Shown here in pieces: positions 46,219 through 60,961 of a DNA stretch of 64,000 nucleotides; position 1 is the stretch's first letter; each line of letters starts with the position of its first letter. The notes under the pieces are model-generated. The model ran no database searches. It worked only from the letters and a program-made list of their open reading frames with translations, and was not told where the DNA came from. The stretch is from positions 3,968,001-4,032,000 of the forward strand of contig NZ_CP038438.1 of assembly GCF_004683905.1 (NCBI RefSeq), written 5' to 3'. This DNA is from Pseudomonas fluorescens (GTDB lineage: Bacteria; Pseudomonadota; Gammaproteobacteria; Pseudomonadales; Pseudomonadaceae). Made by a program: the position numbers and the translations under genes.

Positions 46219-46743
46219 CTATCGGGGTTTGTTGATTTCGCGCAGCAGATCCGCGACTGGCAGGTTCATGGTGTTTGAGTAGTAGGGTTTATAGCCGTAC
46301 GCGGTGACGACGACTTTGCAGGGGATTTGTTGTTTGTTCGCGAGGAGTTGATTCAGTTCTGTTACTGAAAGATTTCTCTCAGAACTTCGGTTGCTGGAAG
46401 TTTCACTGAGGAATGCGCGAGTAAGGTAGGAAAACTTTCCCTTGTTGTTTTCATTTTTTTCCGATCGTATCAAACCGGATGCGGAGAACTGTATGGCTTT
46501 GCCTACTGAGAAATCATGATCATCCGCCAATGCGCAATGAAGCATGCCCGAAATCATCCCAACTCGCTCCCCGCGATCAAAAAGATCCAACACATCAACG
46601 TCCGACTGATACCGGATGATGTATAGCAGCGACTTTTCTCTTTCCACAGATTCGAAGTTCAGGTTTGCGGGAGGCTTTGTGTGGTCTTTCGCACAACCTG
46701 AGCAAATAGCGAGCAAGCAACAAATGAGCACCCTGTACATCAT
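46219..46743 (-). CDS. Lipoprotein, candidate immunity protein for the adjacent lipase effector
   Basis: 174 residues with a type II signal (MMYRVLICCLLAICSGCAKD; lipid-modified Cys17 expected). The mature part is about 157 residues, without a recognised domain. The start overlaps the lipase stop in an ATGA (46740-46743), so expression is strictly coupled. T6SS lipases act in the periplasm and their known immunity proteins are usually periplasmic or lipoproteins, so immunity is a reasonable inference. The first of two adjacent ATG codons (46743) is preferred because of the overlap. Confidence 0.7.
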   Translation of the reverse strand: MMYRVLICCLLAICSGCAKDHTKPPANLNFESVEREKSLLYIIRYQSDVDVLDLFDRGERVGMISGMLHCALADDHDFSVGKAIQFSASGLIRSEKNENNKGKFSYLTRAFLSETSSNRSSERNLSVTELNQLLANKQQIPCKVVVTAYGYKPYYSNTMNLPVADLLREINKPR

Positions 46744-47468
46744 GGAAAATCCTTCATGATTGAGTCAAAAAGCATATCGGCTGCCGATTTGCTCCCCGCG
46801 ATACGGGCAGTAAACAACCCCAATGCATTTGCATGATTAGTGTCTATATTGACGTTCAATGAAGGGCCACAGGAGATAAGCCACTTTTCACCAAAATCAG
46901 CGACCCCATCTGACGAATCTCTTTTAGTTGGCATCGCTTTGATGTTGATCCAGTCGGCAGCAATTGGATCGGGGCGTTCGCGATAAATATCCGACCCCAA
47001 CCAGACCAAGGCCCCTTCACCCACGGGATCAAGGGTAATCAGCATCTGAATCCGGTAACCCCATTCCGACATGATCTTTGTCAGATGCGCACCGTTCCAC
47101 CCACCGAGGCTATGACCCACGATATAGACAGGACAGCTCTTGTAGGGGATCAGACTCAAGACATGTCGCTGAATATCCTGTTTTCCTCTGACTTCGTTAT
47201 AGCCCAGCCACTCAGACTTATATTTACCCTCCTTTGCCAAGCTTGTCGTGCGCTCATCAAAGTCCTTCCGTGCCTCTTGGATGTTTCCATAAGGCCCCGA
47301 AAAATAATAACGTTCCTTATCCCCAGCGCCTCCGACGAAAACAACAATCGCCTTGGTACTCTCCACCGGCACAGGCTTGTCACTGACATCCTTCTTGTCC
47401 GTCAGCGCATGTTCCTTGTGCAGCTTGTAATTGTTGCCTTTCGCGCACGTTACTGTTTCAGCGGCCAT
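46740..47468 (-). CDS. Candidate type VI lipase effector (GxSxG)
   Basis: 242 residues, no signal peptide. An alpha/beta-hydrolase with a clear triad: Ser120 in YIVGHSLGGWNG, Asp147 in ITLDPVG, and His212 in DTNHANAL. VVFVGGAGDKERYYFS near residue 43 looks like the oxyanion-hole strand. The context (PAAR gene 3 bases upstream, coupled lipoprotein downstream) is that of a T6SS Tle-type phospholipase effector and its immunity. It fits none of Tle1-4 by eye, so I leave it unclassified. No other T6SS structural gene is in the window, so the cassette would depend on an apparatus encoded elsewhere. Confidence 0.72.
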   Translation of the reverse strand: MAAETVTCAKGNNYKLHKEHALTDKKDVSDKPVPVESTKAIVVFVGGAGDKERYYFSGPYGNIQEARKDFDERTTSLAKEGKYKSEWLGYNEVRGKQDIQRHVLSLIPYKSCPVYIVGHSLGGWNGAHLTKIMSEWGYRIQMLITLDPVGEGALVWLGSDIYRERPDPIAADWINIKAMPTKRDSSDGVADFGEKWLISCGPSLNVNIDTNHANALGLFTARIAGSKSAADMLFDSIMKDFP

Positions 47469-47471
47469 GCC

Positions 47472-47969
47472 TCACTCCTCCAAAAACAGCTTGATGGTTT
47501 CAGGCAGGTGCGAGCTAACTTCGTGGGTGAACCCGTTAGCGTCAGACACCCCGTGCTCCAGACGCCCGTCTGCGCGCTGGATCACGTAGGGATGATTGGT
47601 CATGGGCTCACCGGTCACGTCATTGACCAGTTTCAATTTGTCCGTGAAATGCACCGGCATCGGCAGCAATCCACTGAAAGGTGCCGCTGTTACCGTGTCA
47701 CCAATGATGACCGTGCCCGACCCGCCAATGACCACATTGCCGTGCCCACCGGTGCTGTCCAGGGTCGCGGCGTTTAAGCCATTGATAAACACCGTCGAGG
47801 AAACGCCGCCAGTAATCGGGCTGCCGCACGCTGATTTATCGGTCATTCGGGCAGCCGCCAATCCGTCGAAATTCACATTCGGCGAGCCACTGGCAATCGG
47901 ATTGGTGCCATGTCCCGGGAGTGGGCAGGCGGTTGGATCGGTGACGCGGGCGGCGGGTTTTCCGCTCAT
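47472..47969 (-). CDS. PAAR-repeat T6SS spike protein with C-terminal extension
   Basis: 165 residues. The PAAR domain (about 1-98) has the repeated P-A-A-R-like strands and metal ligands: PAARVTDPTACPLPGHG, SACGSPI, and TGGHGNVV. It sharpens the VgrG tip and carries effectors. Residues about 105-165 (VHFTDKLKLVNDVTGEPMTN, then GRLEHGVSDANGFT) resemble the transthyretin-like extension on VgrG and PAAR proteins that docks cargo. AAGGAG precedes the ATG. It heads the PAAR-lipase-lipoprotein operon. Confidence 0.92.
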   Translation of the reverse strand: MSGKPAARVTDPTACPLPGHGTNPIASGSPNVNFDGLAAARMTDKSACGSPITGGVSSTVFINGLNAATLDSTGGHGNVVIGGSGTVIIGDTVTAAPFSGLLPMPVHFTDKLKLVNDVTGEPMTNHPYVIQRADGRLEHGVSDANGFTHEVSSHLPETIKLFLEE

Positions 47970-48104: not shown

Positions 48105-48770
48105 TCAACGCGACGGCGGCACCCGAATATCCCCCGCCCGGCACTGCGTCTTCACGCCCTTGCCGCACGCGCCGAACTGCAGATCCTTGCCCATGCACAC
48201 CCGCACTTCCGAAAGCTCCGGGCCGCTGCAGATCACCGCGATGCCATTGGCCGGGATCCCCGGGTTGGCCTTGCGGAACAGGTCGGCGATTTCCTGGGCT
48301 TCGAAGTAATACGAGCTGCTGAACGGTTGCAGCTCCTGCGGGATTTTCACCGCGCCAACTGCTTTGTCCGCTTCGTCCAGATAACCCATCGCGCCCAGGC
48401 CGCTGCAGGTGCCGTGCTTGGACCATTCGTGGTCAAGCAGTTTCTTGGTCGGGAACAGTGTCAGGCCCTTGGTGGTTTCCGCGGCCGACAACGTGGTCAG
48501 CGGTGGGCAGGATTCCGGCCAGCCGCCGTTGGCGTATTGCGGCCACAAGCCGTGCAGCACGAAGCCGTAGCCCTTGCCGGAGCATTGCACGTCATCTTTG
48601 TGGGTGAGGCAGAACGTTGGCGACCAGGACAGCGTCAGCAGGTAGTAATCGAACTGCCCCGCTACCGCTTCCGTTTGTACCTTGCTGGCGTTCGACTGAC
48701 GCGCCGAACTCAGGCCGATGCTACCGGCCGTCAGCGCGATCAGCGCCAGAATTGTAAACAGCTTTTTCAT
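48105..48770 (-). CDS. Secreted RNase T2-family ribonuclease
   Basis: 221 residues from the ATG at 48770 (MKKLFTILALIALTAGSIGL), a good signal peptide; the longer frame to 48881 is rejected. Both catalytic sites of RNase T2 are visible: CAS I in FVLHGLWPQYANGG (His) and CAS II in DHEWSKHGTCSG (His, Glu, Lys, His). At least eight Cys residues in the mature part suggest disulfides and a periplasmic or extracellular location. Related to E. coli RNase I. It is close to the PAAR-lipase cassette but has its own terminator, so I treat it as independent. Confidence 0.93.
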   Translation of the reverse strand: MKKLFTILALIALTAGSIGLSSARQSNASKVQTEAVAGQFDYYLLTLSWSPTFCLTHKDDVQCSGKGYGFVLHGLWPQYANGGWPESCPPLTTLSAAETTKGLTLFPTKKLLDHEWSKHGTCSGLGAMGYLDEADKAVGAVKIPQELQPFSSSYYFEAQEIADLFRKANPGIPANGIAVICSGPELSEVRVCMGKDLQFGACGKGVKTQCRAGDIRVPPSR

Positions 48771-48935
48771 GTACCCGCTCCTTGGGACGCCTGCGTCCGT
48801 GGTTTTTGATGCTGACCAGACTTGGCCAGCGCTGATTTCGCCATGCTTGTGTTGCAAGCGCATGACGCAAGGCAACGCCACACCCCGTTGAACGGTCTAC
48901 GATTAACAGGCAGACATCAAACCAAGGGATCCGAA

Positions 48936-49482: not shown

Positions 49483-50268
49483 ATGCCCATCAATAAAAAA
49501 CTGCTCTTGCTCGGTTCATTGCTCGCGCTGAATTTAAGCGCTCAGGCCGCCGAGCAACCGTCGCACCTCGACACCATCCAGCAACAAGGCCAGTTGCGCG
49601 TCTGCACCACTGGCGACTACAAGCCCTACACCTTCAAACGCAGCGACGGCGACTTCGAGGGTATCGACATCGCCATGGCGCGCTCGCTGGCCGACAGCCT
49701 CGGCGTGAAAGTCGAGTGGGTGCAAACCACCTGGAAAACCCTGATGCCGGACATGCAGGCCGGCAAGTGCGACATCGGCATGGGTGGCATTTCGGTGACG
49801 CTGGAGCGGCAGAAGAAAGCCTACTTCAGCAACACCCTCGACAGCGACGGCAAGATCCCGCTGGTGCGCTGCGCCGATCAGTCCAAGTACCAGACCGTCG
49901 AGCAGATCAACCAGCCCAACGTACGGCTGGTTGAACCGGCAGGCGGCACCAACGAAGCCTTCGTCCACGCCTTCCTGCCCAAGGCGCAACTGGCCCTGCA
50001 CGACAACGTGACGATCTTCCAGCAACTGCTCGATAACAAGGCCGACGTGATGATCACCGACGCCTCGGAAGCGCTGTATCAGCAGAAACTCAAACCGGGT
50101 TTGTGCGCGGTGAATCCGCACCAGTACATGCAGTATGGGGAGAAAGCCTATCTGCTGCCGCGCGATGACATCAGCTGGAAACTGTACGTTGATCAGTGGC
50201 TGCATCTGAGCAAAGTCACTGGCAGTTATCAGAAGGTCATTGGTGAGTGGCTGGCGCTGCCGCAGTAA
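49483..50268 (+). CDS. Periplasmic cyclohexadienyl dehydratase-like protein (PheC type)
   Basis: 261 residues. Signal peptide MPINKKLLLLGSLLALNLSA precedes a two-lobed solute-binding fold (SBP_bac_3). Features LRVCTTGDYKPYTFKR, IDIAMARSLADSLGV, GGISVTLERQKKAYFS, GGTNEAFV and VTIFQQLLDNKADVMITDA match PheC of P. aeruginosa, a periplasmic enzyme that converts arogenate or prephenate to phenylalanine or phenylpyruvate. Amino-acid binding proteins of ABC systems share the fold; the absence of neighbouring transporter genes and the GGTNE and AEKAYLLPRD motifs favour PheC. An aminotransferase for the next step is encoded at 36757. Confidence 0.75.
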   Translation: MPINKKLLLLGSLLALNLSAQAAEQPSHLDTIQQQGQLRVCTTGDYKPYTFKRSDGDFEGIDIAMARSLADSLGVKVEWVQTTWKTLMPDMQAGKCDIGMGGISVTLERQKKAYFSNTLDSDGKIPLVRCADQSKYQTVEQINQPNVRLVEPAGGTNEAFVHAFLPKAQLALHDNVTIFQQLLDNKADVMITDASEALYQQKLKPGLCAVNPHQYMQYGEKAYLLPRDDISWKLYVDQWLHLSKVTGSYQKVIGEWLALPQ

Positions 50269-50287
50269 TCTTCCAGGCACAAACATT

Positions 50288-50387
50288 TGTGGCGAGGGAG
50301 CTTGCTCCCGCTGGGCTGCGCAGCAGTCCGCTGTTTTAAAAGCGGGGGTTGCTTCGCAACCCATCGGGGATAAATCCCCTCGCCACA
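50288..50387. repeat. Complex inverted repeat (TGTGGCGAGGGAGCTTGCTC family)
   Basis: Outer arms TGTGGCGAGGG (50288-50298) and CCCTCGCCACA (50377-50387) pair, with inner hairpins GGGAGCTTGCTCCC, CTGCGCAGCAG and GGGTTGCTTCGCAACCC. A cruciform-like REP family again different from those listed. No gene is present. Confidence 0.82.
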
Positions 50388-50406
50388 GGTTCAGGTTCTA
50401 TTTCTA

Positions 50407-50622
50407 TCAATCGTTGTGCAACATCCCGGAGCTGTACTGGTTCAAGCTGCTACCAATACTGTTACCGCCGAATTTGAGGGTCGTTGCATTTGTGCGACCC
50501 TCCGGCGATTGGCAATCCGAGGAGAAACAACTGGTGGTGGTCAGCCCACCGGAGCCCGAACAGGCACTCAATACCGAGACAGCTGCAGCGATCAACAGCA
50601 CTTTGACGACATTGGTGCGCAT
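50407..50622 (-). CDS. Small lipoprotein (71 aa)
   Basis: 71 residues. A classic lipoprotein signal is visible: MRTNVVKVLLIAAAVSVLSA followed by Cys, making lipobox LSAC. The mature part is about 50 residues, rich in Ser, Thr, Gly and Asn, without recognised domain. The strong ribosome-binding site AAGGGGAG precedes tandem ATG codons; the second (50622) has the better spacing. It is convergent with pheC across a repeat. Confidence 0.75.
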   Translation of the reverse strand: MRTNVVKVLLIAAAVSVLSACSGSGGLTTTSCFSSDCQSPEGRTNATTLKFGGNSIGSSLNQYSSGMLHND

Positions 50623-50802
50623 CATACGGCTCCCCTTGGGATGATCTTGTGCAAGCATCCTAGGCCTAAGTCGCGCCCGGCAAGATGAAATTTTGCTGAT
50701 CGACAGCGCGGGTTCAGAATCCAGGGCTGCGGCAATCGGCTGGTCTGCCGACAACGCCGCAAAAGATTCTGTCACCCCATTGGAAAAACGCCCCCGGCCC
50801 GC

Positions 50803-51303
50803 TCATTCCCTTCCCGGTCTGGGTATCGCAATACGGCTACTGGTCTTGACCTCACGCAACGCCAGGCTGGACTGGATGGACGCAATCCCGACTTGGCGCC
50901 TGAGCACCTGCTCGATGAAATCGCTGTAGCTATCCAGATCCTCGGCCAGCACCTGCAACACATAATCGGCATCGCCGGTGATCTTGTGACAGGACAGCAC
51001 CTGGGGCAGTTGCGCAATCACCGACTCGAAGGCGTCCGGCGCGTGATCGGCGTGGGTGGAAAAACGGATGTGCACGAACGCCATGATGTCCAGCCCGAGC
51101 ATTCGCCGATCAAGGTTGGCCTGATAGCCCTTGATCACCCCGGCCTCCTCCATTCTTTTGCGCCGCCGCCAGCAAGGCGTAAGGCTCAACGACAGCCGCT
51201 CACTGAGTTCAGCGTTGGAAATACTGGCGTCTTCCTGCAACAACTCAAGAATCGCCAGGTCGGTCTCGTCGAGACTGATGCGTTTGGATGATTTTTTCTG
51301 CAT
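50803..51303 (-). CDS. Lrp/AsnC-family regulator
   Basis: 166 residues. N-terminal helix-turn-helix (LDETDLAILELLQEDASISN ... ERLSLSLTPCWRRRKRMEEA) and C-terminal RAM ligand-binding domain (about 75-155; LPQVLSCHKITGDADYVLQV). It is divergent from the acetylpolyamine amidohydrolase gene with 119 bases between, so control of that operon by an amino acid or polyamine-derived ligand is likely. Length and motifs are normal for Lrp. Confidence 0.93.
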   Translation of the reverse strand: MQKKSSKRISLDETDLAILELLQEDASISNAELSERLSLSLTPCWRRRKRMEEAGVIKGYQANLDRRMLGLDIMAFVHIRFSTHADHAPDAFESVIAQLPQVLSCHKITGDADYVLQVLAEDLDSYSDFIEQVLRRQVGIASIQSSLALREVKTSSRIAIPRPGRE

Positions 51304-51422
51304 GACGCCAATCCTGAGTAAGAACGCCCGATTAATCTACTGAATCAAGAAAACAAAGCAAAGAAAGCGCAGGTCAGCCGGAACAGAATATTTGCACTGG
51401 CTCACATTAACGGATGCGCAGA

Positions 51423-52457
51423 ATGTTTACAGTTTTCAGTGATTCCCACCGTTTGCACCATGGCACCGAATTGAAGGACGGCGTGCTCAAGCCGTCATTC
51501 GAACAACCGAGTCGGGCCGATACGGTGCACAACCGCGTCAAACAGGTCGGCCTTGGGCAAATCGTCGAACCGCGTGCGTTTGACCGCTCGTGCTACGTCA
51601 ACGCCCACAGTGAGCGCTACGTCAGTTTTCTGGAAAGTGCCTGGACCGAATGGTGCGCAACCGGACGCACGCACGATGCCTTGCCCCTGGTCTGGCCGGT
51701 ACGCGATCTGGGCAACGAGCAAGTGCCGACGTTCATCGACGGCAAGCTCGGCTTCTATGCCATGGATGCCGGTTCGCCCATCACCGCCACGACCTGGCAA
51801 GCGGTGAAAACCAGCGCGGATATCGCCCTCACCGGACTCGCACTGATCGATGAAGGCCACGACAGCGCCTTTGCCCTGTGCCGCCCGCCCGGCCATCACG
51901 CTGCGCGCGAATACATGGGCGGTTATTGCTACCTCAATAACGCCGCGATTGCCGCGCAGCAGGCCATCACCCAAGGCGCCAAACGTGTCGCGGTGCTCGA
52001 CGTCGACTTCCACCACGGCAACGGCACCCAGAACATTTTCTACCAGCGCAGCGACGTCATGTTCGTCTCGCTGCACGGTGAACCTGCGGTGTCCTACCCG
52101 TACTTTTCAGGTTACAGCCACGAAGTCGGCGCGGGTGTCGGCGAGGGTTACAACCTCAACTACCCGCTGCCGAAAAACACCACGTGGGAGAGCTACCGCA
52201 ACGCCCTGCTCCACGCCTGCAAAAAGCTCCAGCAGTTCGCACCTGAAGTGCTGGTGATATCCCTGGGTGTCGACACGTTCAAGGATGACCCCATCAGCCA
52301 CTTCCTGCTGGAAAGCGAGGACTTCATCGGCATCGGAACGCTGATCGCCAGTGTCGGCTGCCCCACCCTGTTCGTGATGGAAGGCGGCTACATGGTCGAT
52401 GAAATCGGCATCAATGCGGTGAACGTGCTGCATGGTTTCGAGAGTAAACGCAGCTGA
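51423..52457 (+). CDS. Acetylpolyamine amidohydrolase (histone deacetylase family)
   Basis: 344 residues from the ATG at 51423 (MFTVFSDSHRLHHGTELKDG); an ATG 9 bases earlier is possible. Zinc-dependent deacetylase for N-acetylputrescine or related acetylated polyamines. Family motifs: RPPGHHAAREYMGGYCYLNN (tandem His), VLDVDFHHGNGTQNIFY (zinc Asp and His), SLGVDTFKDDP (zinc Asp) and MEGGYMVDEIG. The RLHHG and loop around residue 85 match bacterial polyamine deacetylases rather than eukaryote-like HDACs. It heads an operon with an ornithine cyclodeaminase and a permease. Confidence 0.93.
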   Translation: MFTVFSDSHRLHHGTELKDGVLKPSFEQPSRADTVHNRVKQVGLGQIVEPRAFDRSCYVNAHSERYVSFLESAWTEWCATGRTHDALPLVWPVRDLGNEQVPTFIDGKLGFYAMDAGSPITATTWQAVKTSADIALTGLALIDEGHDSAFALCRPPGHHAAREYMGGYCYLNNAAIAAQQAITQGAKRVAVLDVDFHHGNGTQNIFYQRSDVMFVSLHGEPAVSYPYFSGYSHEVGAGVGEGYNLNYPLPKNTTWESYRNALLHACKKLQQFAPEVLVISLGVDTFKDDPISHFLLESEDFIGIGTLIASVGCPTLFVMEGGYMVDEIGINAVNVLHGFESKRS

Positions 52458-52506
52458 ACCATCCCCGCTCTGCGGCCTTTGAATGACTGAATCGGAGAAC
52501 AACAAC

Positions 52507-53559
52507 ATGACGCTTTTTATTGATGTCGATGATGCTGCACGCCTGTTCACCCAGGTCGGCATCCGCCGGGCCATCCGCGACATGGCGGGCTACATCGAAG
52601 CGGACTACGCACGCTGGGCGCAATTTGATAAATCGCCGCGCACGGCCAACCACTCGGCAGACGGCGTGATCGAGCTGATGCCCACCGACGATGGCCAGCA
52701 GTACTCGTTCAAATACGTCAACGGCCATCCGGACAACGGTCAGCAGAATTTACTGACGGTCATGGCCTTCGGGCTGCTGGCCGATGTGCAGAGTGGCTAC
52801 CCGACCCTGCTCAGCGAACTGACCCTGACCACCGCTGTGCGCACCGCTGCCACCTCGGCACTGGTTGCGCAGTCGCTGGCTCGCCCGGGTGCGACCTCGA
52901 TGGCGATCATCGGCAACGGTGCGCAGAGTGAGTTTCAGGCGCTCGCCTTTCATGAAATGTTGGGCATCAGCGAAATCCGCATCTTCGATATTGATCGCGA
53001 CGCTTCGCTCAAGTTGAAGCACAACCTGGCGGCGTTTCCGCAGATCGAAGTGATTCTGGCCGACTCGGTAAAGGACGCGGTCAAGGGTGCGCATATCGTC
53101 ACCACAGTCACCGCCGACAAAGCCTACGCAACGATTCTCACGCCCGAAATGATCGAACCCGGCATGCATATCAATGCGGTCGGCGGCGACTGCCCGGGTA
53201 AAACCGAACTGCACGCCGACATCCTGCGCAACGCCCGGGTCATCGTCGAATTCGAGCCGCAAACACGCATTGAAGGCGACATTCAGCAATTGGAGGCCGA
53301 CTCTCCAGTGGTCGAGTTTTTCCGGATTGTGCAGGGCGAAGTGCCCGGCCGCGAGAGCGATACGCAGGTGACGGTCTTTGATTCGGTGGGCTTTGCTCTG
53401 GAAGATTTTTCGTCACTGCGCTACCTCAACGACCTGGCTCAGCAACAGCAAATCGGCCAGCGCATCCACCTGGTACCGACGCCGGCCAACATCAAAAATC
53501 TCTTCCAGTTGCTGGAGCCGCAACCGGCAACAGCCTCACGTCTGCGCACCGCCAGTTAA
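52507..53559 (+). CDS. Ornithine cyclodeaminase family protein
   Basis: 350 residues from the ATG at 52507 (MTLFIDVDDAARLFTQVGIR), with GGAG 9 bases upstream. Converts ornithine to proline with loss of ammonia, using NAD; related members act on other amino acids. The Lys-Asn region KYVNGHPDNGQQNLLTV, Rossmann loop MAIIGNGAQSEFQALAFHEM, and DxG-like AVGGDCPGKTELHADIL are in order. It follows the polyamine deacetylase by 49 bases. Together with that gene it suggests a route from acetylated polyamine or ornithine-like compounds towards proline. Confidence 0.92.
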   Translation: MTLFIDVDDAARLFTQVGIRRAIRDMAGYIEADYARWAQFDKSPRTANHSADGVIELMPTDDGQQYSFKYVNGHPDNGQQNLLTVMAFGLLADVQSGYPTLLSELTLTTAVRTAATSALVAQSLARPGATSMAIIGNGAQSEFQALAFHEMLGISEIRIFDIDRDASLKLKHNLAAFPQIEVILADSVKDAVKGAHIVTTVTADKAYATILTPEMIEPGMHINAVGGDCPGKTELHADILRNARVIVEFEPQTRIEGDIQQLEADSPVVEFFRIVQGEVPGRESDTQVTVFDSVGFALEDFSSLRYLNDLAQQQQIGQRIHLVPTPANIKNLFQLLEPQPATASRLRTAS

Positions 53560-53571
53560 TCAGTAAGGACC

Positions 53572-53597
53572 GCCCCCACGCGATTTTGCGAGGGGGC
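53572..53597 (+). terminator. Hairpin between the cyclodeaminase and permease genes
   Basis: GCCCCCACGC-GATTTT-GCGAGGGGGC, a 9-bp GC-rich stem with one mismatch and no proper T run. It could attenuate rather than end transcription, or be a processing signal. Confidence 0.45.
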
Positions 53598-53704
53598 CAT
53601 TCACTCTCCAGGCATCGCTGTGATTAGCCGCTGTCTCTCTAACAAGAACGCTCGACACCTACTTTCTGCCAAAACTCAAAAACATAAAATCAAGAGGTTT
53701 TGCA

Positions 53705-55120
53705 ATGAATTCGAATCCTTCCGGGCCGCTTGAACAGCCCGCGCTGCAGCGCACGCTCAGCAATCGTCACATCCAGTTAATGGCCATGGGCGGTGCCATC
53801 GGTACGGGACTGTTCATGGGCTCCGGGAAGATCATCGCCCTCTCCGGGACGTCGATCATCCTCATCTACATGATCATCGGCCTGTTCGTTTTTTTCGTCA
53901 TGCGCGCCATGGGCGAAATGCTCCTGTCCAACCTGAACTTCAAAACCTTTGCCGATTTTGCCGGCGCCTACCTCGGCCCGCGCGCGGCGTTTTTTCTCGG
54001 CTGGTCGTATTGGTTGAGCTGGAGCGTGGCGGTGATCGGCGATGCCGTTGTGGTCGGCGGATTCTTCCAGTACTGGTTCCCCGAGGTACCGGCGTGGATA
54101 CCCGCCGTCGGCATGCTGGCGACGTTGTTTGCGCTGAACGTGCTGACGGTCAGGCTGTTCGGTGAGGTGGAGTTCTGGTTTGCGATCATCAAAATCATTG
54201 CCGTCGTGACCTTGATCGGCGTCAGCACCGTGCTGATTGCCACGTCCTTCGTGTCCCCGAGTGGCGTCACCGCATCCCTGAGTCACCTGGTGGATAAACA
54301 GGCGGCCTTCCCTAACGGCTTGTTCGGCTTCTTCGCCGGATTTCAGATGGCAATTTTCTCCTTCGCCGGCACCGAGTTGATCGGCACCGCCGCCGCTGAA
54401 ACCCGATCTCCAGAGAAGACCTTGCCCAAGGCCATCAACTCGATTCCGCTGCGGATCATCCTGTTCTACGTGCTGGCACTGACTTGCATTGTTGCCGTGA
54501 CCTCGTGGCAGCAGGTGTCTCCGGTCAAGAGCCCCTTTGTCGAACTGTTTCTCGTGGCTGGGTTTCCCGCGGCCGCCGGTATCGTCAACTTCGTGGTCCT
54601 GACATCGGCGGCATCATCGGCCAACAGTGGCGTGTTTTCATCGAGCCGCATGCTGTTCGGCCTGGCCAACCAGCAAAACGCTCCGGGCATCTTCCGGCGA
54701 CTGTCAGGTAACAGCGTGCCGCTGCTGAGTCTGGCGTTCACCACACTGCTGATGCTGATTGGGGTGCTAGTGCTGTTCATCGTGCCGGAAGTGATGACCG
54801 CCTTCACCATCGTCTCCACCGTGTCGGCGATTCTGGTGATTTTCACCTGGTCGACCATCCTCGCGTCGTACATTGCCTATCGCAAAAAACGCCCGGACCT
54901 GCATGCGAAGTCGGCTTACAAGATGCCCGGCGGCGTACCGATGGCCTGGTTTTCCCTGGCATTTCTAGGCTTTGTGCTGTGTCTGCTGGCATTGCGACCT
55001 GACACGCGGATCGCCTTGATGGTCATGCCGGGTTGGTTCGTTTGGTTGGCGATTGCTTACCAGTTGACCTGCTCAAGGCAGACGAAATCGGCAGTTGAGT
55101 CGGCGAGCCAGTTTGGCTGA
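53705..55120 (+). CDS. Amino-acid permease, APC/AAP family
   Basis: 471 residues, 12 predicted transmembrane helices. It begins with the diagnostic RHIQLMAMGGAIGTGLFMGS (first helix, substrate-binding GAIGTGL), followed by RAMGEMLLSN and further family motifs EFWFAIIKIIAV and FAGTELIGTAAAET. It belongs to the family of AroP, GabP, CycA, LysP and ProY; the substrate is not determinable by eye. It is 145 bases downstream of the ornithine cyclodeaminase gene on the same strand; supply of amino acids to that pathway is inferred. Confidence 0.92.
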   Translation: MNSNPSGPLEQPALQRTLSNRHIQLMAMGGAIGTGLFMGSGKIIALSGTSIILIYMIIGLFVFFVMRAMGEMLLSNLNFKTFADFAGAYLGPRAAFFLGWSYWLSWSVAVIGDAVVVGGFFQYWFPEVPAWIPAVGMLATLFALNVLTVRLFGEVEFWFAIIKIIAVVTLIGVSTVLIATSFVSPSGVTASLSHLVDKQAAFPNGLFGFFAGFQMAIFSFAGTELIGTAAAETRSPEKTLPKAINSIPLRIILFYVLALTCIVAVTSWQQVSPVKSPFVELFLVAGFPAAAGIVNFVVLTSAASSANSGVFSSSRMLFGLANQQNAPGIFRRLSGNSVPLLSLAFTTLLMLIGVLVLFIVPEVMTAFTIVSTVSAILVIFTWSTILASYIAYRKKRPDLHAKSAYKMPGGVPMAWFSLAFLGFVLCLLALRPDTRIALMVMPGWFVWLAIAYQLTCSRQTKSAVESASQFG

Positions 55121-55179
55121 ATCTGCACGCCTGAGCCGTCACCTCAACGTGATGGCTCAGGCTCAAAGACCAGCCGCCG

Positions 55180-55959
55180 TCAAATCGGCTGCCACGCCTC
55201 CACCGGAATCTGCGCCATCGCCTCAAACGCCGGTTTGGCGAACCAGAATCCCTGCATCAGATAAATCCCGCAATCAGCGAGAAAATCCCGCTCCTCGGGG
55301 TGCTCGATGCCCTCGGCAATCACCTCGACGCCCAACTCGGCACACATGCCCACCACGCCACGCACAATCGCCTGGCGTACGCGGTCGCGATGGATATCGC
55401 GAATCAGCGCCATGTCCAGTTTGATCAGATCCGGCTGAAAGTCCGCCAGCAGATTCAACCCGGAATACCCCGCACCGAAGTCATCAATGGCGGTCTTGAA
55501 CCCGAACTCGCGGTACTCGCGCAAGATGTTCATCAAGTGCTTGTTGCTTTCGACGTGCTCGCCTTCGACCGCTTCGAAGATCAACCGCTCAAGCGGAAAC
55601 GCATGCGCGCGCGCCGCCTCCAGCGTGCTGCGAATGCACAGGTCCGGACGATAAACGGCGTTCGGCAGGAAGTTGATCGAAAGAAACCCGGTGAGCCCCA
55701 ACTGCGCGGCCGTGGAGATTGCCCGCACGCGGCACAGTTGATCGAAGCGATAGCGGTTCTGGTCATCGACCTGCTGCAGAACCGACAGTGCACCTTCGCC
55801 CTGCACGCCCCGGACCAGCGCCTCGTGGGCGAAGGTCGATTGATCACGCACATCGACAATCGGCTGGAACGCGAAGGAGAACGCCATATCGGCCTCGCCT
55901 TTTTGCCGGCATCCTTGGCACCCCCCGCTGGGCTGGGGGAAAATTGGTGTATTGGTCAT
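55180..55959 (-). CDS. EAL-domain cyclic-di-GMP phosphodiesterase with N-terminal Cys motif
   Basis: 259 residues from the ATG at 55959 (MTNTPIFPQPSGG), with AGGGGG upstream; an alternative start at 56010 would add 17 residues. The first 25 residues contain the cysteine pair CQGC. The EAL domain (about 25-255) has the active-site residues HEALVRG, INFLPNA, FEAVEGE, DDFGAGYSG, IKLDMAL, AEGIEH and QGFWFAKP, so it should be a working phosphodiesterase. No sensor domain or membrane segment is present. It lies next to a chemoreceptor gene but is separated from it by 136 bases. Confidence 0.9.
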   Translation of the reverse strand: MTNTPIFPQPSGGCQGCRQKGEADMAFSFAFQPIVDVRDQSTFAHEALVRGVQGEGALSVLQQVDDQNRYRFDQLCRVRAISTAAQLGLTGFLSINFLPNAVYRPDLCIRSTLEAARAHAFPLERLIFEAVEGEHVESNKHLMNILREYREFGFKTAIDDFGAGYSGLNLLADFQPDLIKLDMALIRDIHRDRVRQAIVRGVVGMCAELGVEVIAEGIEHPEERDFLADCGIYLMQGFWFAKPAFEAMAQIPVEAWQPI

Positions 55960-56095
55960 GACGCCCCCTGAGAGCGGGTTGCAACCATCCATGGCCCAGA
56001 AAAAAATCACTGCACGGACCGGGTGGCGCCGCTTGGCGGCCCCCGCTTATACAGGCTGACCGGTCAATTCCGGCCAAGTTCATTGCGAAATGCCA

Positions 56096-59096: not shown

Positions 59097-59281
59097 GCCG
59101 GCGGATTCTGTCTTAGGTGTAGGGGGAGGCGCAAGGTGGTGTAGGGCTGAGGTAGTACGGACAACCTCATCTTAAACAGACTGAATCTCAACCGTTTAAA
59201 TTGAAGACGCTGTACCAAGGCACGAGTCCAAACAAGTCTGATAGAGTCGGCACCGGTTCATTCGTTGACAGGGAGTCAAAC

Positions 59282-59827
59282 ATGGCAAAGCCAGCCGCAC
59301 GCATCACCGATCCCACCAGTTGCCCAATGCCTGGGCACGGCCCCAAAGCAATCGCTTCCGGTTCCCCCGACGTATTCTTCGACGGACTGGCGGCTGCTCG
59401 AAAAGGCGATACTTGCACTTGTGGTAGTGCGTTGGCTTCAGCGGTTTCCGGGACAGTTTTCATAAACGGCAAAAACGCCGCGCTTGTCGGCACCACGGGT
59501 ACGCATGGAGACGTTGTGACTGGTGGATCGGGAACAGTGATCATCGGTGACTCCCATACACCAGCTCCTTTTACAGCCCCTACCCCGATCATCGTTCACC
59601 CTGGTTGGATCAGCTTCAATATTCCAGGGGAGGAGTCATATCAGGGCATGAGTTGCTCCGCACACTTTGACGACGGATCTACCCTATCAGGCGTTTTTGA
59701 TAACACCAACACAGTGAAATTTCTCAATATCCCCGGGAAAATCTGTCACAAGCTTGAATTCGGTACACAAGAGGAATCGGCCGCTGGTTCGATCTTCGAT
59801 ACGTTATTCAACGCTTCTTTGAAATAA
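59282..59827 (+). CDS. PAAR-repeat T6SS spike protein with C-terminal extension (second cassette)
   Basis: 181 residues from the ATG at 59282 (MAKPAARITDPTSCPMPGHG), with GGGAG upstream; an earlier in-frame start lacks support. The PAAR domain (about 1-100) is close to that of the protein at 47472: ITDPTSCPMPGHG, TCTCGSAL, and GTHGDVVTGGSGTVIIGDS with likely Cys/His metal ligands. Residues about 108-181 (HPGWISFNIPGEESYQGMSC ...) form a different extension, without a recognised domain, which may dock its cargo. It heads a three-gene plus-strand cassette. Confidence 0.9.
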   Translation: MAKPAARITDPTSCPMPGHGPKAIASGSPDVFFDGLAAARKGDTCTCGSALASAVSGTVFINGKNAALVGTTGTHGDVVTGGSGTVIIGDSHTPAPFTAPTPIIVHPGWISFNIPGEESYQGMSCSAHFDDGSTLSGVFDNTNTVKFLNIPGKICHKLEFGTQEESAAGSIFDTLFNASLK

Positions 59828-59837
59828 GGATTTTTTC

Positions 59838-60620
59838 ATGACTGAACCATTGCTCGTCACGGGAAGCTACGTTGTCCAGAAAGCACACGCGCTCGAAAAT
59901 TCGCCCTTGGATATGGCCATTGCGGGAATGGAAGGTGCTGCTACAAGATTTTCTGTAGACGCTATATCGGATGCAAAAGTACGCACCAACTACATGAACA
60001 ACATCAAACGTATGTCAGTGGAAACAAAAGCCGAAGTTGCTGCAGGAAGGCTTAGTGCTAAAGAAGGAGCAGCGTTCTGCCAAGAGATGCGAAACAGAAT
60101 TTTGCTGGAGCACCGAAAATACACTTCGGCACAAGGCGTGGCCTTTGCCGAGAGAAAAAAGAGACTTCCTCCAACGCTTCAGGAAACGCTAGATAAATAC
60201 GCATTAAAAACCGCAAAAGTGGAATACAGCAAACTTACTCCGGAACAAAAAAGCAAAGTTTACTATGAGATTCTTGACTCAGCAGGGCGGGACAATGCAC
60301 CGGTAAGTAGGGGAACCAAGAAATTAAGAATTATGGGGAAAGTCGGTTTATTGGTCACCGCCACCTTCGCCGTTTATGAAATTATGAATGCTGACAACAA
60401 AGTGAAGGAAACAGCCAGACAAGGAATCATCATCGGCGGTGGGGCTGCGGGTGGTGGGGTGGCGGGCTTGGGCGTTTCCGCATTTTGCGGGCCTGGTGCC
60501 ATTGCATGTGCTGTAGCAATCGTCTTGGCAGGCAGTATCGCAGGAGGCATTGCTGGTAGCGTTGTTGCTGATACCTTTGATGAAGAGTTGGAGGAATTTT
60601 CCAAATGGGACGCGCTATGA
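59838..60620 (+). CDS. Candidate T6SS pore-forming effector
   Basis: 260 residues, no signal peptide. A soluble, charged N-terminal part (about 1-170) is followed by a hydrophobic region with two or three helices (about 174-192 and 195-250) rich in Gly and Ala: GIIIGGGAAGGGVAGLGVSA and GSIAGGIAGSVVAD are glycine-zipper patterns (G-x3-G) typical of membrane-inserting toxins. It starts 10 bases after the PAAR gene, with AAGGA before the ATG, and its stop overlaps the next start (ATGA). The gene is A+T-richer and uses different codons from the core genes. The effector role is inferred from position and the hydrophobic tail; no enzymatic motif was seen. Confidence 0.6.
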   Translation: MTEPLLVTGSYVVQKAHALENSPLDMAIAGMEGAATRFSVDAISDAKVRTNYMNNIKRMSVETKAEVAAGRLSAKEGAAFCQEMRNRILLEHRKYTSAQGVAFAERKKRLPPTLQETLDKYALKTAKVEYSKLTPEQKSKVYYEILDSAGRDNAPVSRGTKKLRIMGKVGLLVTATFAVYEIMNADNKVKETARQGIIIGGGAAGGGVAGLGVSAFCGPGAIACAVAIVLAGSIAGGIAGSVVADTFDEELEEFSKWDAL

Positions 60621-60961
60621 CAAAGCAACAAAGAGCGGATATTCGCTGGGCATTGTCAGACGCATTCGTTGATAACGAAGTCGACTATGCTGCGATTGCG
60701 CGGCAGACAGAAGAATTTGATAGAGACGAAATCAAGCGAATTTTGTTTGAAGAGGTAGCGCCTGTTTGTCACTCCAACCTTGAAAGTACACTTCCGACTA
60801 TCTGGCTTTGTTTCAATAGAGAAGAGCTGGAAAACGACATTGAAGAAATGCTTAATGCAAAGAAACATAACTGGATGAAGAATCAGCTAAACTCTCTATT
60901 GGTAAAATGGCTAAAACACAGATACAAATATATTTGGCACAATATAGAAACTCATTATTAA
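60617..60961 (+). CDS. Candidate immunity protein, DUF7079-like
   Basis: 114 residues from the ATG at 60617 (MTKQQRADIRWALSDAFVDN), which overlaps the effector stop as ATGA. Soluble and acidic in the first half (VDYAAIARQTEEFDRDEIKR), basic at the end (WLKHRYKYIWHN). The phrase LSDAFVDNEVDYAAIARQ and FEEVAPVCHSNL resemble the DUF7079 family often seen with T6SS effectors, but that match is from memory and tentative. Coupled position is that of an immunity gene. If the partner really is a pore former, a soluble immunity protein would be unusual. Confidence 0.55.
   Translation: MTKQQRADIRWALSDAFVDNEVDYAAIARQTEEFDRDEIKRILFEEVAPVCHSNLESTLPTIWLCFNREELENDIEEMLNAKKHNWMKNQLNSLLVKWLKHRYKYIWHNIETHY

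Follow-up and report, generated by a model that had tools for sequence, protein, structure and literature searches.

A Pseudomonas cassette of an Lrp-type regulator, an ApaH-like deacetylase, an ornithine cyclodeaminase and a CycA-like permease as a probable catabolic unit for N-delta-acetylornithine

The stretch of Pseudomonas fluorescens DNA considered here (64,000 nucleotides, hereafter the window; all coordinates are positions in it) is part of a genome of 6.14 Mb, denoted G000. It contains four consecutive genes, which code for a divergently transcribed Lrp/AsnC-type regulator, a deacetylase related to the acetylpolyamine amidohydrolases (ApaH), an ornithine cyclodeaminase (OCD), and an amino-acid permease. 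These four genes had been recognized in a preliminary description of the window, and searches of the open reading frames (ORFs) against Pfam and NCBIfam profiles found all of them in the order given there, Lrp(-)/deacetylase/OCD/permease. The span assigned to the set, 51304-55120, contains the deacetylase, OCD, and permease genes, while the Lrp gene (50803-51303) falls just outside of it. The features of the locus are as follows.

50691..55177, no strand: extent of the cassette, the stretch that is absent from an empty site in a close relative
50803..51303, minus strand: Lrp/AsnC-type regulator, divergent (HTH_24, AsnC_trans_reg)
51304-51413: divergent promoter region, between the Lrp gene and the deacetylase ORF
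51355..51363, plus strand: AAAGCAAAG motif, candidate Lrp operator or promoter element (conserved-motif scan)
51423..52457 (ORF from 51414), plus strand: ApaH-like deacetylase, predicted N-delta-acetylornithine deacetylase (PF00850)
52507..53559 (ORF from 52483), plus strand: ornithine cyclodeaminase (NF005762)
53705..55120, plus strand: APC-type amino-acid permease, CycA-like (AA_permease, CycA model)

The Lrp/AsnC protein combines a helix-turn-helix with an AsnC ligand-binding domain and scores 110.5 bits on the Lrp model, below the 233-bit cut-off. The deacetylase matches the Pfam Hist_deacetyl family (PF00850) with 233.6 bits. Its start is more likely the ATG at 51423 than 51414, because in 14 of 28 rows of the same type the alignment does not begin until residue 3 or 4. 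The OCD scores 546 bits on NF005762, for which the curated cut-off is 350, and the ATG at 52507, behind GGAG, is the likelier start than 52483 because more distant OCDs align with the window protein from residues 5-9, mostly 8 or 9. The permease belongs to AA_permease and scores 655.8 bits on the CycA model (NF008272), short of the cut-off of 732.

The distribution of the cassette was followed in a sample of 119 genomes of the genus and in the best 80 named loci, a set that overlaps the genus sample in strains. A deacetylase of the window type, at 68% identity or more, was found in 28 of the 119 genomes (that of the window and 27 others), and the next matches were at 59% or less. The divergent Lrp gene and the downstream permease surround the deacetylase in 26 of the 27 other genomes, and this type of permease (at least 67% identity) is present in 27 of the 28 genomes with the deacetylase versus 1 of the 91 others. 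Among the best 80 named loci, the Lrp gene was found in 76 and the permease in 67. The deacetylases of these loci are labeled Pseudomonas in 69 records, and the other 11 are from Vogesella, Chromobacterium, Trinickia, Paludibacterium, Paucimonas, Oxalobacteraceae, and other metagenome-assembled genomes (MAGs). In two of these genera, Vogesella and Trinickia, what follows in place of the permease is a periplasmic binding protein of the branched-chain amino-acid type (below the NCBIfam model cut-off). A search of 369 genomes of the class at E 1e-130, a limit that passes close kin only, returned a deacetylase match solely in the window's own genome.

Sites without the cassette were also identified. 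The genome G074, from a close relative, has an empty site at locus L292: its sequence matches the left flank of the window as far as position 50690 and the right flank from position 55178 on, and the two matches are separated by 46 bp. In two further genomes (G105 and G036) the flanking genes are adjacent, approximately 0.7 kb apart, and the cassette is absent, and in three loci (L039, L075, and L076) the cassette is located beyond the neighboring EAL and chemoreceptor genes. The OCD gene at the locus is on the same strand in 16 of the 27 other genus genomes, on the opposite strand in 1, a remnant in 1, and missing in 9. For the best 80 named loci the corresponding numbers are 39 on the same strand (two of them, L086 and L113, split in two pieces), 5 on the opposite strand, and 36 with none. 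The record of P. fluorescens FW300-N2E3 (L085) contains all of the cassette, and in a strain of P. simiae (L109) the core is present but no local OCD.

These comparisons indicate that the four genes are real and are gained or lost by Pseudomonas as one block, and that the Lrp, deacetylase, and permease genes are the core of the locus while the OCD gene is an optional part. The neighborhood is more than chance because the core recurs in 26 of 27 genomes and the empty site lacks all four genes. The proposal that the four genes constitute one module is upheld by this recurrence and by the absence of the whole block, and it needs to be qualified for the OCD. An arrangement of neighboring genes that share no pathway would agree with the 36 named loci that have no OCD, but it is contradicted by the gain or loss as a block, the conserved order, and, as described below, the co-occurrence on the species tree and the repeated change in OCD linkage; we consider it very improbable.

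Three proteins with a histone deacetylase (HDAC) domain are encoded in the window's genome. One of these, at 6.04 Mb, is an ordinary ApaH that is 56% identical to the window deacetylase and adjoins a PotF-like spermidine/putrescine-binding protein (482.5 bits, under the cut-off of 636). A tree of 48 rows was constructed, in which PA0321 and PA1409 are not placed. In this tree the 32 window-type rows form one side of a branch with an SH-aLRT value of 96, and the other side holds 13 ordinary Pseudomonas rows together with three solved chains, those of PsApaH, the M. ramosa enzyme (MrApaH), and 6phr. The window deacetylase is 56% identical to PsApaH and 47% to MrApaH. None of ten loci of ordinary ApaH has an OCD, a cassette-type Lrp, or a cassette-type permease. 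By its identity values and its place in the tree, the cassette deacetylase appears to be a separate subfamily and not the ordinary acetylpolyamine enzyme.

Accounts of PA0321, PA1409, and PsApaH, all of them assayed, are given in the accessible text of PMC4784309 and PMC11532494, and the word "ornithine" is absent from the main texts of both papers. It could be argued that the cassette specifies a second acetylpolyamine deacetylase, acting on N-acetylputrescine or N-acetylcadaverine, with the OCD and permease serving ornithine or other amino acids in parallel. The family membership, the PIS motif, and the zinc site are all retained, and the assayed cluster 4 enzymes act on acetylpolyamines as far as these accounts go. 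However, an ordinary ApaH beside a PotF-like binding protein is already present in this genome, and an acetyldiamine substrate leaves the OCD, the type of permease, and the second ApaH unexplained. Taken with the residues, the species tree, and the permease discussed below, this makes a polyamine substrate unlikely.

Residues of the deacetylase were compared in an alignment of 108 window-type and 16 ordinary rows, numbered from the ORF start at 51414. The rows were not de-duplicated: among the ordinary ones L034 and L063 are one gene and L035 and L064 another, and several named loci are strains in the genus sample. The zinc and catalytic residues D198, H200, D287, H161, H162, and Y326 are kept in 108/108 window-type rows and are the same in the ordinary rows. 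The PIS motif, in the place of the HDAC10 gatekeeper, is also retained (P293 in 107/108, I294 and S295 in 108/108). At the positions of the dimer salt bridge R95-D163, the arginine is found in 108/108 rows and Asp163 is changed to Glu in 108/108. The window type shares with PA0321, PA1409, PsApaH (9GKZ), and M. ramosa ApaH the fold family, the zinc and catalytic residues, PIS, and RPPGHH. It differs from them in K21, in R165, and in its tie to an Lrp gene, a CycA-like permease, and an OCD.

K21, which corresponds to M. ramosa position 19, is found in 108/108 window-type and 0/16 ordinary rows, and R165 (M. ramosa position 162) in 101/108 and 0/16, respectively. The absence of both from the 16 ordinary ApaH rows is a further argument against an acetylpolyamine substrate. 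R165 is located three residues past RPPGHH, beside Asp163 of the dimer salt bridge. D109, found in 108/108 window-type and 7/16 ordinary rows, aligns with Glu106 of the M. ramosa enzyme, which holds the substrate amine according to the accessible text of PMC11532494. The same source describes the L1 lid, what Asp163 does, and the contacts made by Phe27 and Ile29, and from these contacts position 19 (K21) may be part of the lid. With the roles of K21, R165, and D109 resting on the numbering of the published structures, the site can be read as one that would suit a zwitterion, with D109 for the amino group and K21 or R165 for the carboxylate. An AlphaFold2 model from a five-row alignment was set aside (mean pLDDT 61.5; values under 50 in loops 9-36, 84-123, and 161-170).

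The window OCD is 63% identical to the OCD of P. putida (1u7h), for which no tie to a deacetylase is described in the literature that we found. The residues that we take to be the active site of the P. putida enzyme (R45, E56, K69, R112, and D228) are all identical in the window OCD, at residues 53, 64, 77, 120, and 236. Ectoine utilization (doe/eut) operons also have a deacetylase, the OCD-like EutC, and an Lrp-type regulator in one locus. The deacetylase of those operons is from a different family than that of the cassette, and the window OCD scores 97.5 bits on the EutC model, for which the cut-off is 471.65.

The presence of an OCD anywhere in a genome was scored at E 1e-80 in the genus sample and at E 1e-60 in the named genomes. 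All 28 genus genomes with the window-type deacetylase have an OCD versus 18 of the 91 without it. The rpoD tree covers 118 of the 119 genomes, G066 having been dropped (no rpoD match; neither deacetylase nor OCD), and for these the numbers are 28/28 and 18/90. Among 15 independent pairs on this tree, the OCD differed in the same way as the deacetylase in 10.9 (mean), in the opposite way in 0, and not at all in 4.1 (median p 0.00098). This co-occurrence is partly due to both genes moving together. With the 18 local-OCD genomes removed, a distant OCD is found in 10/10 deacetylase genomes versus 18/90 others. Local and distant OCDs are nearly exclusive, since only 1 of the 18 genomes with a local OCD has a second one and all 10 without an intact local OCD have a distant one, a pattern that comes from just 2 independent pairs on the tree. 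Because the OCD tracks the deacetylase though it is optional at the locus, the product of the deacetylase is most likely ornithine, and we hold this with good confidence. The same trend on the species tree, together with the ten ordinary loci that have no OCD, disfavors an acetylpolyamine substrate.

The OCD gene is not fixed in position. It stands between the deacetylase and permease genes or behind the permease (L061 and L134), is on the opposite strand in L062, L137, L141, L143, L144, and L146, and directly follows the deacetylase where the permease is absent (L142 and L150). A first OCD tree, limited to deacetylase-side and CtlX-side OCDs, allowed one old linkage and one loss. A second tree of 64 rows (21 linked and 43 other), in which the linked rows were thinned to 21 and 20 more distant OCDs and three from the class sample were added, does not. 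In the larger tree the linked OCDs are not one group and at least 6 changes in linkage are needed, at least 4 of them on branches whose support is 95 or higher; this tree does not tell gains from losses. We conclude from the tree that the linkage between OCD and deacetylase has changed repeatedly, at least four times. In one locus (L047:6078-6275, genome G099) an OCD remnant of 66 residues, at 59% identity, lies between the deacetylase and permease genes, and an intact OCD is found elsewhere in G099. In P. bharatica CSV86 (L138:7689-10013) an ISL3-type transposase and an apparent membrane protein, recognized by eye, lie between the same two genes.

The distant OCD adjoins CtlX in 9 of the 10 genomes without an intact local OCD, the exception being G101, and a match elsewhere at E 1e-60 was found for 31 of the 36 named genomes in which the locus lacks an OCD. 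CtlX-OCD is a putative citrulline pathway in the accessible text of Price and others 2022 (PMC9007349), in which a neutral N5-acyl ornithine is split by a putative hydrolase and the OCD makes proline from the ornithine so released. CtlX is related there to the arginine deiminases and not to the HDACs, whereas the hydrolase of the cassette is of the HDAC family. By analogy, the cassette would work like the citrulline route with a different hydrolase, using enzymes that are all from known families. In four loci (L062, L141, L143, and L146) the deacetylase, CtlX, and OCD genes are adjacent, and each of these loci also contains CycA-like permeases and another gene of the Lrp type. On our reading, these loci could be an island for N5-acylornithines.

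An alternative is that the deacetylase itself acts in place of CtlX and makes ornithine from citrulline by hydrolysis, citrulline being the carbamoyl isostere of N-delta-acetylornithine. Citrulline is neutral too and would also yield ornithine for the OCD, 13 of the 28 deacetylase genomes have no CtlX (that of the window has none at E 1e-60), and four of the five listed permeases at 60-61% identity to the CycA-like permease, in four genomes, are within about 6 kb of CtlX. Replacement of CtlX would predict mutual avoidance, but CtlX is found in 15 of the 28 genomes with the deacetylase versus 19 of the 91 without it, which is co-occurrence, and the two genes are side by side in G001 and three named loci. 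Moreover, HDAC-fold enzymes are known to act on acyl amides and are not known to act on carbamoyl amides. A citrulline hydrolase is accordingly an improbable assignment.

The permease is most similar to a transporter of small, neutral amino acids, which is another point against an acetylpolyamine. N-delta-acetylornithine is a neutral amino acid, so this type of permease fits it. The fit is also supported by the near restriction of this permease type to genomes with the deacetylase (27 of 28 versus 1 of 91) and by the position of four of the five listed permeases at 60-61% identity near CtlX, given that citrulline, the likely substrate of CtlX, is a close isostere. An attempt to read the specificity from residues, in an alignment with a lysine permease inspected by eye, did not separate neutral from cationic carriers and was dropped. 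Alpha-acetylornithine is handled by ArgE, an unrelated enzyme. Ornithine would come from the delta-N-acetyl form because enzymes of this fold cut the acetyl group off a terminal amine, and N-delta-acetylornithine is thus the probable substrate of the deacetylase. Pieces of hydroxamate siderophores were set aside as substrates because hydroxamates such as SAHA, described as an inhibitor of these deacetylases in the accessible text of PMC4784309, inhibit these enzymes.

The same pocket would also suit other omega-N-acyl amino acids, N-epsilon-acetyllysine or N-delta-formylornithine for example, in which case the OCD would be linked for a related reason. In the accessible text of PMC11532494 the assayed Pseudomonas sp. 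ApaH also takes acetyl-lysine in a peptide. The OCD nevertheless points to ornithine, given its 63% identity to the P. putida enzyme and the 92-93% identity of linked relatives (L137 and L144) to that crystallized protein, and no lysine-pathway gene was found among the 15 neighboring proteins run against profiles. We regard such a substrate as improbable.

The divergent promoter region was examined for conserved sequences. The motif AAAGCAAA[AG] was found in 99 of 103 intergenic regions between the Lrp and deacetylase genes (rows not de-duplicated), compared with a mean of 0.65 after letter shuffling. The distance from its first letter to the end of the start codon is 70-73 nt in 89 of these 99 regions. 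Its occurrence at 51355-51363 is a candidate operator. A promoter scan of 50200-55300 gave no sigma-70-like sites, and the same interval has 7 terminator-like sites versus 5.0 expected. No unusually good folding was detected in the gap between the OCD and permease genes (z -0.70).

In the pathway that we propose, the permease would import the neutral amino acid N-delta-acetylornithine, and the ApaH-like zinc deacetylase would strip the delta-N-acetyl group to give acetate and L-ornithine. The OCD would then convert ornithine to L-proline and ammonia in one step, with ordinary proline catabolism next. The divergent Lrp-type protein would sense the substrate or ornithine and control the promoters. 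Where the cassette has no OCD, one elsewhere, usually beside CtlX in a citrulline operon, would take the ornithine. We put the probability that the cassette serves to catabolize N-delta-acetylornithine at roughly 60%; the reactions, substrate, transport, and regulation are all ones that we infer from sequence. A more specific proposal is tentative: an HDAC-fold polyamine deacetylase may have become an amino-acid deacetylase through the addition of basic residues, K21 (in the lid region) and R165, which would hold the carboxylate while D109 would hold the alpha-amino group, and together with CtlX this enzyme would form an "N5-acylornithine funnel" into OCD.

Several observations weigh against this assignment. 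The assayed ApaH enzymes described in the accessible text of PMC4784309 and PMC11532494 act on acetylpolyamines. R165 is replaced by Ala in 7 of the 108 rows, and D109 and the PIS motif also occur in ordinary enzymes. The permease scores as a carrier of the D-serine/D-alanine/glycine type, whose substrates are smaller than N-delta-acetylornithine. With the local-OCD genomes removed, the pair test has 6 pairs and a median p of 0.5, which is too weak to decide. Of the 36 named genomes in which the locus has no OCD, five gave no OCD match at E 1e-60 (Vogesella indigofera, two Chromobacterium, a Paludibacterium MAG, and one unassigned MAG), and the OCD match in the L138 genome, counted among the 31, is partial with an internal stop. 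The promoter motif was found in 0 of 20 scanned loci of OCDs away from the cassette, so that no shared control is seen through it.

On balance, the cassette is judged to be real, ornithine is well supported as the product, and N-delta-acetylornithine is the likely substrate. The preliminary description had suggested an acetylated ornithine-like or polyamine substrate. Its ornithine side is favored by the OCD counts (28/28 versus 18/91), the neutral type of permease, and the separate ApaH, and the polyamine half is not. Its remark that no named pathway has this gene set agrees with our search of the open-access literature, in which none was found; subscription papers lay outside that search.

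Other genes in the vicinity of the cassette are as follows. An EAL protein (55180-56010, minus strand; 481 bits on the RimA model, cut-off 430) is located between the cassette and the chemoreceptor gene. A ribonuclease T2 family protein (48105-48881, minus strand; 57.1 bits) is encoded approximately 1.9 kb to the left of the cassette Lrp gene. Two clusters of lower GC content (0.49-0.53), at 46222-47969 and 59201-60961, each include a PAAR-motif protein and proteins without a Pfam match, and one has a DUF7079 partner. Both clusters resemble effector-immunity sets of type VI secretion.

N-delta-acetylornithine is a plant compound, made by the jasmonate-induced NATA1, and nata1 mutants are more resistant to P. 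syringae, according to the accessible text of PMC3711057, which reports Adio 2011. The accessible portions of PMC4520006 and PMC4685198 contain nothing further on the compound. NATA1 also acetylates putrescine, as stated in the accessible text of PMC13317450, so plant acetylputrescine is another compound that the bacteria could meet. Enzymes of this kind have so far been known for trimming polyamines, and the use in this cassette, on acetylated ornithine, would probably differ. The proposed pathway supplies a testable function for a subfamily that sequence annotation would label acetylpolyamine deacetylase, and would add a further route into OCD beside that from citrulline. It would also connect the cassette to a plant compound whose loss alters resistance to bacteria. 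If the assignment is true and strains of the P. syringae group use the compound, it would help to explain why plants that are unable to make it are better able to resist them.

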